NCBI GenBank assembly: GCA_017536895.1
Contig: JAFWCN010000004.1
Location: 1-35,558 of the forward strand
DNA length: 35,558 nt
Direction: 5' to 3'
Origin: Candidatus Saccharimonadota bacterium
GTDB lineage: Bacteria > Patescibacteriota > Saccharimonadia > Saccharimonadales > Saccharimonadaceae
Shown here: piece by piece, positions 1 through 3,222 of the stretch
Numbering within the stretch: the first letter of the stretch is position 1
Layout: each line of letters begins with the position of its first letter
Position numbers and translations under genes: made by a program
Notes under the pieces: generated by a model
Database searches by the model: none
Seen by the model: the letters and a program-made list of their open reading frames with translations, nothing else
What the model was told of the DNA's origin: nothing

Positions 1-268
1 TGTTATCGTTGATTGAAGTAAAAATAGTTAGGTTATAACCTGAGCGACAAGTTGAAGTGATATTGACATTATCTACACCGATGCTAGTAGCTGTAGCGCC
101 GCTAGCATCTGGCTTTACATCTATATTTTGGGGGCCACTAGCCGTGACTGTGATTTCGGCGGAGACAGCAGAAGCGGTAGAAACAATGAAACCTAGGTTA
201 CAAACACCTAAAAAAGACAGTGTTAGTGTCAAAATAAGCAACATTACAGCGCCGGCTGAAGAAGTGTA
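1..268. repeat. Terminal inverted repeat, left copy
   Basis: Bases 1-141 are the exact reverse complement of 35418-35558. Beyond them the match continues to about 268 with three substitutions (142, 158, 228) and one single-base indel near 257. It covers the signal peptide and start of the mature domain of the two outward-facing surface-protein genes. Confidence 0.95.
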
Positions 269-373
269 AAACGTACCGGCGCTGGGATGTCGCTTATTGC
301 TTCGTCGTTTATCCAGCTTAATTCTTTTGCTTATTTTTTCTTTAGTGACTACGCACTTCTTCATGCTTTTCAT
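1..373 (-). CDS. Exported surface protein, 5' end only (left copy)
   Basis: About 124 N-terminal residues are present; the rest lies left of the window. The start ATG at 373 follows a ribosome-site-like AAGAAAGG. The first 35 or so residues are strongly basic, then a hydrophobic segment (AVMLLILTLTLSFLGV) ends in a signal-peptidase-like TASAVSA. The mature part opens with EITVTASGPQNIDV and contains a CRSGYNL motif. The same module (basic head, signal, then a 'C..GY.L' domain) recurs in the 1218-residue protein at 16666-20322 and almost identically in the right-end partial gene, so these form one surface-protein family. Export is well supported; the function is unknown. No separate promoter is obvious in the 60 nt between the start and the RNA terminator upstream. 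Confidence 0.8.
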   Translation of the reverse strand, partial: MKSMKKCVVTKEKISKRIKLDKRRSNKRHPSAGTFYTSSAGAVMLLILTLTLSFLGVCNLGFIVSTASAVSAEITVTASGPQNIDVKPDASGATATSIGVDNVNITSTCRSGYNLTIFTSINDN

Positions 374-433
374 GTGTACCTTTCTTACTAGTTGTTATCC
401 CCTAGGCGGCACGTTTCTTTCGTGACTTCCTCA

Positions 434-597
434 CAAAAACGGCACCGCTAAGGGTGCAACACATAATGACTTAATGAAATAGACAGATCTAACCACAAAG
501 AACAATATGGGCCTTAACGATGCCGTTTTTTATTCTCTGTGCAGAATCTGTCTAATACTAAAAGAGCTATTCACTATTAAATCGTTATGTGTTGCAC
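434..597 (-). ncRNA. Structured RNA, 6S-like architecture
   Basis: A transcript of about 164 nt is predicted from a promoter at 603-630 to a terminator at 435-457. Its ends pair: 582-597 is complementary to 454-469 over 16 positions with one G-U pair (core GTGCAACACATAA). After an asymmetric internal loop of about 28 and 11 nt comes an 8-bp helix (AGACAGAT with ATCTGTCT), then a 9-bp helix (CACAGAGAA with TTCTTTGTG) and an apical loop. Long closing stem, central bubble and distal stem-loop are the layout of 6S RNA, the RNA-polymerase-binding regulator. It lacks the GGAAG apex of SRP RNA and the tRNA-like ends of tmRNA. A regulatory leader (aptamer plus terminator) for the surface gene starting 60 nt downstream is the main alternative. 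Structure is seen; identity is inferred. Confidence 0.6.
435..457 (-). terminator. Rho-independent terminator of the 6S-like RNA
   Basis: Minus-strand hairpin GCACC-CTTAGC-GGTGC followed by CGTTTTTG. Its upstream arm overlaps the last bases of the RNA's closing helix, so terminator and closing stem can compete. Confidence 0.6.
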
Positions 598-602
598 TTA
601 CC

Positions 603-630
603 ATTGTACCAAACGTTAAAAATTTGTAAA
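603..630 (-). promoter_or_regulatory. Promoter of the 6S-like RNA
   Basis: On the minus strand TTTACA (630-625), a 16-nt spacer and TACAAT (608-603) preceded by TGG, an extended -10. Transcription would start near 597, the first base of the closing helix. Confidence 0.65.
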
Positions 631-943: not shown

Positions 944-983
944 ATCGCCTTTGGCTTGCTTTTTCCAGCCAATGGCGATTTTT
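944..983. terminator. Hairpin with T-run, probably bidirectional
   Basis: ATCGCC/GGCGAT outer stem and TGGCT/AGCCA inner stem, followed by TTTTT on plus and by a T-rich stretch on minus. No recognised gene ends immediately beside it. Confidence 0.5.
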
Positions 984-993
984 AAAAATGCAG

Positions 994-1040
994 TTTACCC
1001 CTGTAAAATGGGCCTTTCAAAATGGTCAAATGACCCTCCA
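994..1040. repeat. Direct repeat, copy 1
   Basis: Holds TTACCCCTGTAAAATGGG followed about 12 nt later by TGACCCTCCA. The same two blocks in the same order recur at 1314-1363. Confidence 0.6.
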
Positions 1041-1304
1041 GGAAAAATAGGATTATGGTGGAGCGTAGGGGATCTAAATCCATCTCGTGTATAGAGGATT
1101 TGACAAATCTCCTGACTATGGTGACCAAGTATTATAATAAATGGCGGGTCGTTTCGCATCGCGGGTACGCTTCGTACAGCTTCGTACAGTAGTGAAAAAA
1201 TCTTTTCGCATCGGGCTAATACTTCGTACAATTTTTTGAAAGACCAAAATTAAGACATAAAATCAAGACTACCGCAAATATTATTAATGTAGAAAAAGTC
1301 ACAA

Positions 1305-1342
1305 AAAACAAAAATTACCCCTGTAAAATGGGGTATTTTTTG
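1305..1342 (-). terminator. Terminator downstream of tRNA-Leu(GAG)
   Basis: Hairpin TACCCC/GGGGTA (1316-1335), followed on minus by ATTTTTGTTTTTTGT. Also T-rich on plus. Confidence 0.6.
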
Positions 1343-1374: not shown

Positions 1375-1465
1375 TGGTGTGCGCGACTGGACTTGAACCA
1401 GCACAGCCGTGAATGTGGCCACTACCACCTCAAGGTAGCGTGTCTACCAATTCCACCACGCGCAC
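1375..1465 (-). tRNA. tRNA-Leu, anticodon GAG
   Basis: A complete cloverleaf on minus: acceptor GTGCGCG/CGCGCAC, D-arm with TGGTAGAC, anticodon stem CTACC/GGTAG with loop TTGAGGT giving GAG, a long variable arm typical of Leu, T-arm GGTTCAAGTCC, discriminator A and an encoded CCA. An extended -10 (TGATATAAT) ends 9 nt upstream. It follows the secG-substrate-binding-protein pair; in E. coli the GAG leucine tRNA (leuU) also follows secG. Confidence 0.95.
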
Positions 1466-1494
1466 ATATAATATATTATATCATACTTTTTAAA

Positions 1495-3222
1495 CTATGG
1501 CGTTTTATTTTTGGCAGCTTTATTAACTGCCCACTCATTTATATCCGAGAATCGATCAAGCGCAGTCACGAGTTGTACGTCATTAAAGGTCCGTGCATTC
1601 TTATTATAATAATAGGTCAAGTTGGGCTGGTAAAGACCAATTGCTGGTACACCTGCCACCCAACGTTCCAAAAACGACTCATATTTTTTGATACGTACTT
1701 CATTATTCATAGCGTCACGCGCGCCAAGTAGTAAATCATCCATCAAAACTTCGCGGTAATTTGATAGATTGAGCCCCGAGCTACTTGCCTGTGAAGAGTG
1801 ATAATATGGCAAAAGGTCTGGGTCCGTACCAAGTTCAATTTCGTAAACCAGGATGTCATAATTTCGTTTTGAGATTACATTATTAATAAAATCTTGGTTT
1901 TCCTCGTAGACCGTCGTACTCACTTCGAATCCTAATCCTTCCAGTTCCGATTTAATAGCGTCAGTCACGCCAGGCAAATATCCCGAATTGACCGTCGCGA
2001 TGTCTAGATGGAGTGGCGTGCCAGCACTAAGCTCGCCAATTTTTGCCTTGGCAGCATCATAATTGTATTCTGGAATCGCTGGATAATTCGTTAACTCGAT
2101 TTGCGTACTCAGTAGCGGATAATCTAGCGGTGTGGCTTCTGATGCAGCCTCCCGGATTTTCCCAAGATCAATTCCCTGCCTAATTGCCGCCCTCATTTCG
2201 GTACCTAGCATTTCACGCGCAGTATTAAAGAAAATAAATGCACCAGAGTTCAGCTGAGAGTTTTTGATTAGAAACTGCCCAGCCTTGACTTTGTCAGATT
2301 CGGCTTCAGTCAATTCCGCTGTTCCAGTCACCGAGCCAGCATTCACTGCGTTCACTATTTCGTCCTTAGTATTAAAAGTATGAACCGCAAAACTATTCAA
2401 CATTACCTTCCCGCCGTAGTAGTCCGGGTTAGCCGATAAGTAATAAGTTTTATCGTCGACAGTCGAGCCTTGCGTTGCATTGTAACTAAATGCTCCCGAG
2501 GTTACAGGCGCATTTGAAAAGTTGTTTTCTATTAGTGTTTTAGGATCAACTTCGCCTAATATGTGTTTTGGTACCACCGGAAAGTTTAACGCTGTAATAA
2601 AATCTGCGTAACTCACCGGAAGATTAAATACAATTTCTCCCTGCTCATTCTCGCTAACCTTCACGTTCGACAAATTAGAATCATAAATTGAGCTAACAGC
2701 TTGATTTTTTATTAGCTCTGCCGTAAAAATCACATCCTCATTGGTAATTGGTTCGCCATCCGACCATTTTAGCCCATCACGTAGTTTTACGGTCCAAATT
2801 TTACCAGTTTCGTCAGGACGAATTGACTCAGCCAGACCTGCTTTCGCATGACCAGAATAGTCAATCGTTGAAATAGTCGCAAACATTAGCCGACTAAGCA
2901 CTTTTTCGCTACTCGTTGTCGCAAACAGCGGATTCATTGTTTTAACTTCACCGAGCGTCGCCTCAGTATAAGCCCCACCTTCCACGAATACATTTTCTGC
3001 ATACGAATCGCCAAACCAAAAAGCCTGCGCCACCGCTAGCATAATAAGCGCCGTAACTAGAAGCGACCACTCAAGAATAAGCAACCGAATATTTTCGATG
3101 TGCGATATCCTTTCGACGACGTTCTCCTTAATATGTTCCTTACTATCTTCGCTGGCTTTTACTGAAGCTCGCGAGAACCGCCTTACAAACTTTTGCCCAC
3201 GCTTTTGAATAGAATTTTTCAT
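1495..3222 (-). CDS. Membrane-anchored SBP_bac_5 (OppA/DppA-type) substrate-binding protein
   Basis: 575 residues. A basic cytoplasmic head is followed by one membrane segment at about 46-70, then a family-5 solute-binding fold. Characteristic are KTMNPLFATT near 95 and LRDGLKWSDGEPITNEDVIF near 147, matching the signature of oligopeptide and dipeptide ABC-transporter binding proteins. There is no lipobox; the protein is tethered by an uncleaved N-terminal helix, plausible in a monoderm. It begins 1 nt after the secG stop, so the two form one operon. No permease or ATPase genes lie nearby, so the substrate (peptides are the family norm) and the partner transporter are unknown. Confidence 0.85.
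   Translation of the reverse strand: MKNSIQKRGQKFVRRFSRASVKASEDSKEHIKENVVERISHIENIRLLILEWSLLVTALIMLAVAQAFWFGDSYAENVFVEGGAYTEATLGEVKTMNPLFATTSSEKVLSRLMFATISTIDYSGHAKAGLAESIRPDETGKIWTVKLRDGLKWSDGEPITNEDVIFTAELIKNQAVSSIYDSNLSNVKVSENEQGEIVFNLPVSYADFITALNFPVVPKHILGEVDPKTLIENNFSNAPVTSGAFSYNATQGSTVDDKTYYLSANPDYYGGKVMLNSFAVHTFNTKDEIVNAVNAGSVTGTAELTEAESDKVKAGQFLIKNSQLNSGAFIFFNTAREMLGTEMRAAIRQGIDLGKIREAASEATPLDYPLLSTQIELTNYPAIPEYNYDAAKAKIGELSAGTPLHLDIATVNSGYLPGVTDAIKSELEGLGFEVSTTVYEENQDFINNVISKRNYDILVYEIELGTDPDLLPYYHSSQASSSGLNLSNYREVLMDDLLLGARDAMNNEVRIKKYESFLERWVAGVPAIGLYQPNLTYYYNKNARTFNDVQLVTALDRFSDINEWAVNKAAKNKTP

Follow-up and report, generated by a model that had tools for sequence, protein, structure and literature searches.

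Saccharibacteria are epibionts that live by contact with other bacteria, and we know of almost no work on surface regulation in such reduced genomes. In other bacteria and their mobile elements, several RNA-based devices act on transcription ahead of a gene. In pT181-type plasmid attenuators, an antisense RNA encoded opposite its target promotes termination, and the put leaders of phage HK022 bring about processive antitermination without a paired terminator at their base. Transcription attenuators, or premature terminators in gene leaders, have been surveyed (PMC2965389), and 6S RNA is known for a conserved central bubble that resembles an open promoter (PMC9130861). The locus analysed here carries a leader belonging to a family that has apparently not been described before; no earlier description of such leaders was found in the open-access literature searched, and none of the open-access papers found linked 6S RNA with Saccharibacteria or CPR.

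The locus lies near the start of the window, by which we mean the whole stretch of DNA that was analysed (35,558 nt). An earlier note had proposed that positions 434-597 encode a 6S RNA or, alternatively, a switch-type leader, and had described a promoter TTTACA-16-TACAAT followed by a hairpin, a terminator and a T-run. All of these elements are present, and all lie on the minus strand, which the note had left unstated. The parts, in their order along the minus strand, are the following.

625..630, minus strand: -35 hexamer TTTACA, found by sequence inspection
603..608, minus strand: -10 hexamer TACAAT, preceded by TG, with a 16-nt spacer
576..597, minus strand: 5' arm of the closing helix, from the fold
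555..575, minus strand: asymmetric 5' bulge with CUCUUUUAGUAUU, the window copy's version of a common U-rich motif
531..554, minus strand: 5' arm of the two-part apical stem, from the fold
512..530, minus strand: apical-loop motif a' (AAAAACGGCAUCGUUAAGG), complement of the terminator
480..505, minus strand: 3' arm of the apical stem, from the fold
454..475, minus strand: 3' arm of the closing helix, from the fold; its last bases double as the 5' arm of the terminator
435..457, minus strand: predicted intrinsic terminator GCACC-CUUAGC-GGUGC-CG-UUUUU, containing tail motif a
399..416, minus strand: possible degenerate second loop motif (a'', AAACGUGCCGCCUAGGGG) in the 5' UTR, weak, read from the sequence
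2..373, minus strand: start of a gene for a secreted or membrane surface-type protein, truncated by the contig edge

The promoter (630-603) matches at 10 of 12 positions, and the spacing to its -10 box places the putative start of transcription at 597-595 or close by. From the end of the U-run to the ATG at 373 there are 61 nt, in agreement with the distance of about 60 nt to a surface-protein start given previously. The open reading frame that starts there has a membrane- or secretion-type N-terminus, and since the window is an entire contig (C16), it runs off the contig edge.

The RNA from 597 to 434 folds at -55.8 kcal/mol, compared with -31.7 +/- 3.9 for shuffled sequences (z -6.1; none of 200 shuffles was as good), and the fold of the plus strand is weaker (-46.8). 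The hairpin (597-455) has a large bulge on its 5' side and a two-part distal stem, and thus shows the asymmetric bubble and distal architecture that had been reported for it. The closing helix exists as well, but it does not have the exact 16 bp claimed for it: 13 unbroken pairs are followed by one mismatch and about six more pairs. Positions 530-512, in the apical loop, form an inverted repeat of 19 nt with the terminator region (453-435), with 17 of the 19 positions pairing exactly and the remaining two as G-U. The predicted duplex between the two has an energy of -30.2 kcal/mol, far from the -13.8 +/- 2.7 obtained for 500 shuffles, of which the best reached -23.5.

Upstream of the leader, a gene of the solute-binding-protein type (575 aa; assigned by inspection) and a tRNA-Leu(GAG) gene (window positions 1378-3222) are neighbours in most genomes of the same genus; beyond them, the gene content differs. 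The non-coding stretch between the tRNA-Leu and the leader (window positions 960-1340) contains repeated short palindromes (TACCCCTGTAAAATGGGGTA-like) and also direct repeats (TTTTCGCATCG, CTGTACGAAG). In a synteny comparison, the flanking gene and the tRNA-Leu were conserved in relatives and the leader RNA was absent from the corresponding position. Homologs therefore had to be sought through the terminator and the loop motif.

When the whole element was used as the query of a DNA search, relatives matched only in the terminator part, with 11 such matches, often at contig ends, in a single same-genus genome. The surroundings of these matches follow a common plan: a -10 box, a long hairpin of unrelated sequence with the loop AAACGGCRCCRYGAGG, the terminator GCACCCCTCGCGGTGCCGTTTTT, a short 5' UTR and a gene for a secreted protein. 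Because the pattern GGTGCCGTTTTT alone also matches unrelated sequence, copies were accepted only when hairpin and loop were present. The first 16 copies have similar folds, and their loop-terminator pairings range from -27 to -34 kcal/mol. A covariance model (R1) built from 15 copies, the window copy excluded, recovered the window copy independently with 68.7 bits and an E-value of 1.7e-14, the E-values of this model being rough. It also located three additional copies in the window's own genome (C14:69382-69532, C1:47975-48126 and C4:16989-17150), which brings the total there to four.

With strict filters, R1 matches were found in at least 77 of the 174 genomes of the genus; the genomes are mostly MAGs, and genus labels come from kinship assignment. 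Fuller scans gave 41 matches in genome G174 and 45 in G079; after one or two opposite-strand shadows in each are discounted, about 39 and 44 copies remain. A 0.8-Mb genome can thus carry up to about 40 copies. The source records that carry names are mostly Saccharibacteria from the gut of sheep, goat, cattle, deer and similar. Viral contigs gave no leader match. Leader copies were also seen in MAG contigs from rabbit gut that carry the labels Oscillospiraceae, Dysosmobacter or Clostridia (L255, L259, L262, L275 and L276), which are probably mis-binned Saccharibacteria. Other genera and a few other families have one to four weaker matches per genome, and in most of these the hairpin, the loop and the terminator (ACACC-UUGC-GGUGU-CGUUUUU) were confirmed by inspection. 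The genes downstream of the leaders in other genera encode small membrane proteins, an OmpA-like protein, a DNA methylase and a Tsp45I-type (type II) restriction enzyme. The presence of copies ahead of the last two suggests that the device is general in the order. These related leaders, at L385 and L386, precede an N6/N4 DNA methylase and the Tsp45I-type enzyme, and leader control of restriction-modification genes is worth a look.

For most of the following comparisons we used a set of 161 copies, collected by the pattern and by at least 14 of 16 standard pairs in the closing helix. The pairing percentage of that helix is therefore fixed by construction in this set and its count of G-T departures leans slightly the same way, and the other tests are independent of the filter. 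The position of the leader relative to promoter and gene is highly regular. A -10 box adjoins the hairpin foot in 158 of 160 copies, 120 of them with TGn, compared with 15 in a control window. An open reading frame with a hydrophobic, secretion-type N-terminus follows in 112 of the 113 copies that could be tested, against 19 of 156 for the opposite flank, which served as control, and the U-run lies a median of 69 nt ahead of it. Several of the downstream proteins match Fib_succ_major weakly, below the cut-off, and one matches the Listeria-Bacteroides repeat. As in attenuation leaders, the predicted intrinsic terminator lies between promoter and start codon, with no evident second promoter. In two loci of relatives (L381 and L382), the ATG is only 15 nt past the U-run, which leaves hardly any room for a separate gene promoter. 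Motifs resembling a -10 box are in slight excess between terminator and open reading frame (23 of 109 copies versus 13 of 109 after shuffling), and some copies may have independent starts there.

Covariation in the helices, on which the earlier note had staked its candidate, is present. In the 15 non-window copies, 95.2% of the cells in the 18 pairs of the closing helix are paired, compared with 73.7% after shuffling (none of 500 shuffles as high) and with 27-45% for slid controls, and both sides have changed in 15 of the 18 pairs. When the window copy is included, 222 of the 224 cells in the first 14 pairs are paired, against 172 +/- 5 when arms are swapped between copies; kinship among the copies inflates these and the other shuffle-based statistics. 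The apical arms, which played no part in collecting the copies, pair with their own partner at -16.7 kcal/mol and with a swapped one at -5.9 (161 copies), and 157 of the 161 own pairings but only 31 of the 161 swapped ones reach -8 or better. When the register is set on Watson-Crick pairs only, the departures from standard pairing in the closing helix comprise 264 G-U (G-T in the DNA) and 10 A-C on the sense strand. G and U can pair in the sense RNA, whereas the same positions read on the opposite strand would give A-C; the molecule under selection is therefore the sense RNA.

The stems themselves vary freely. Among 16 copies of G174, 23 of the 120 pairs of copies are near-identical over the 150 nt past the terminator, whereas no pair is so in the hairpin arms. 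Similarly, the hairpins of L186 and L187 differ even though the two loci have about 110 nt of upstream sequence in common; the shared upstream unit of these two G174 loci consists of a promoter TTGACA..TATAAT and a short terminator-like palindrome (a small hairpin). Across copies, the hairpin measures 31-42 bp and the loop 21-29 nt. Such near-constant dimensions combined with unrelated arms indicate that length, loop and terminator are constrained and that the stem sequence is free. Closing and apical stems compensate each other in length (correlation -0.71), so that the total is kept, which neither proves nor excludes a fold-back in cis. Of the 161 copies, 124 have a U-rich motif, TTTT[AT], on their 5' side, compared with 32 in shuffles.

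The complementarity between loop and terminator is the second conserved property. The ACC..GGTGC terminator stem is present in 153 of 161 copies, and 2406 of 2576 loop-tail cells (93.4%) are paired, compared with 2348.6 +/- 4.2 when tails are swapped, a contrast inflated by kinship. Loops bind their own terminators at -25.9 kcal/mol and at -9.2 after shuffling of the loop. In multi-copy genomes, where the motifs are homogeneous, loops fit the terminators of other copies equally well (-25.7); because any loop fits any terminator there, specificity in cis is not general. The window's own genome provides cleaner evidence than the swapped-tail count, since relatedness inflates the latter: the window copy (GUUAAGG in the loop, CCUUAGC in the terminator) and the C4 copy (GUUCAGG and CCUGAGC) show matched changes relative to each other and to the remaining two copies, and for three of the four loops the strongest pairing is with the terminator of their own type. 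The alternative pairing that would destroy the terminator is thus conserved with covariation, as in attenuation leaders. Relatives with a single detected copy retain the loop-terminator pairing, and in G029 (L109) it is kept although the terminator lacks the 5' GCACC arm. A further loop-like motif, a'', can be clearly recognised past the terminator and ahead of the start codon in 98 of 153 copies, compared with 5 of 109 for a control stretch; in the window it is at best degenerate.

In the light of these data, the reading of the window RNA as 6S RNA, that is, as an open-promoter mimic that sequesters RNA polymerase, appears exceedingly improbable. Its length is similar, and so is the long hairpin with an asymmetric internal bulge. 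However, no Rfam 6S family was among the matches at E<=10 in region 374-700, a search of the same genome with RF00013 gave no match, and same-genus relatives yielded a single match at chance level (E 2) and nothing above it; inspection of the rnpB neighbourhood of the window's own genome for a hidden 6S revealed none. At the gathering score, the Rfam scan of the window and of 11 loci carrying other copies returned tRNAs only, and hence no known riboswitch or leader. Over the 161 copies, the bulge is one-sided, U-rich and variable in position as well as in size (median 16 nt on the 5' side and 0 on the 3' side), unlike the 6S bubble, and conservation resides in the apical loop and terminator rather than in the bubble or its flanks. 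A 6S RNA, which binds the sigma-70 holoenzyme and serves as template for product RNAs, is expected in one or a few copies and not as the leader of an adjacent gene, whereas this RNA has four copies in its own genome and about 39-44 in G174 and G079, with unrelated stems and always co-directional with an open reading frame just downstream. Membership of the 6S family is refuted by the negative scans of Rfam models and relatives, the multiple copies and the linkage to genes. In two other families of the order, 6S-like RNAs were found near rnpB (L031:1501-1652, plus strand, 39.5 bits; L032:1501-1654, minus strand, 32.4 bits; Rfam cut-off 46.4). They differ in sequence from the window element and, unlike it, fit the 6S consensus in its conserved part around the bubble; they are possibly the true 6S RNAs of Saccharibacteria.

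The alternative already raised, a switch-type leader, is supported by the geometry of terminator and open reading frame, by the complementarity and covariation of loop and terminator, and by more than 100 other copies of the same kind. We infer that the window element is probably a 5' transcription-attenuation leader of the surface-protein gene at 373, one of a multi-copy family in which the loop would be a built-in antiterminator. Transcription would begin at the foot of the long hairpin and meet the intrinsic terminator right after it, ahead of the start codon. By default, most transcripts would stop there as RNAs of about 160 nt, and the gene would be expressed only when RNA polymerase reads through. 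The apical loop would present a strand complementary to the entire terminator, and its pairing would block the terminator hairpin and switch the gene on. The loop might reach the terminator in cis, by a bend at the U-rich bulge, or in trans, from another leader molecule. Because the full length of a hairpin of about 36 bp separates loop and terminator, their pairing requires either such a bend in cis or a partner in trans, and the shared motifs make pairing between leaders possible. Three observations sit badly with the simplest attenuator: the complementarity runs into the U-tract, which simple antitermination does not need; hairpin plus terminator (about -56 kcal/mol) outweigh the loop-terminator pairing (-30); and in G029 the pairing is retained although the terminator stem is not a normal one.

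The first of the other readings takes up the route in trans. The terminated RNAs of about 160 nt may be trans-acting small RNAs whose a' and a motifs pair with the terminators and a'' motifs of other leaders, forming one surface-gene network of co-activation or mutual exclusion. We hold this to be possible but unlikely: loop and tail motifs are common to all copies in multi-copy genomes and interchangeable in energy, a'' is frequent and hairpin length is near-constant despite free stems, but three of the four loops in the window's genome prefer their own terminator type, relatives with a single detected copy keep the pairing where no partner leader is known, and a'' is missing or degenerate in the window. 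A bolder form, to which we give somewhat little credence, is that tens of leaders share one loop/terminator code and that the RNAs they release target the terminators and 5' UTRs of one another as a genome-wide circuit, coordinated, mutually exclusive or bistable, for some 40 surface proteins, with the free stems preventing pairing across arms.

Two further readings do without a switch, and we consider both quite improbable. The element might act as DNA, its inverted repeats bounding exchangeable surface-protein cassettes as a recombination site, a cruciform or an integron-like hairpin. The near-identity of sequences past the terminator in G174 where hairpin arms differ, the frequent position of the family's genes at contig ends, as for repeats, and the tail motif in both orientations around the hairpin would all suit such an element. 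An integron attC site or DNA hairpin should, however, be symmetrical without strand preference, and the 264 G-T against 10 A-C point to selection on the sense RNA; the promoter abutting the hairpin in nearly every copy and the U-tract after the terminator also argue against it. Gene conversion of downstream genes may be a separate process. Alternatively, the leader may be passive. Hairpins close to the 5' end are known to stabilise mRNAs, and this one, far more stable than the alternative pairing, might do only that, with a weak terminator setting a constant low read-through and the loop complementarity as a by-product. The latter is disfavoured because compensatory changes have maintained the complementarity among copies, genera and families even though the stems are completely different.

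If the attenuation reading holds, one leader class ahead of up to about 40 secreted-protein genes would amount to a regulon held together by RNA, and the arrangement of the copies points to one shared on/off switch of the cell surface. A covariance model suffices to detect the leader in any genome of the group. Mechanistically, the leader raises the question of how a terminator can be read while the strand complementary to it lies in the loop of the hairpin made immediately before.

Compared with 6S RNA (RF00013), the leader has a similar size, a long hairpin with an asymmetric internal bulge and its own promoter and terminator, but it shares neither sequence nor structure match nor a conserved bubble, and it is many-copied and gene-linked. 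With the HK022 put sites it has in common cis-acting leader hairpins that affect RNA polymerase, in its own case as predicted, and it differs from them by a paired terminator at the hairpin base. In pT181-type antisense attenuators, as would be the case here, loop-first pairing between RNAs decides between termination and read-through; in the leader, however, the complementary loop lies within the leader itself and would oppose termination. The closest resemblance in plan is to the surveyed attenuators (PMC2965389), which likewise combine a promoter, a structured leader, an intrinsic terminator near the start codon and an alternative pairing that would remove the terminator. Unlike in those, the presumed antiterminator strand of the leader forms the apical loop at the tip of a stem of about 36 bp and is complementary to the whole terminator, U-tract included, the stem sequence differs in each copy, and up to about 40 copies per genome precede one class of genes.
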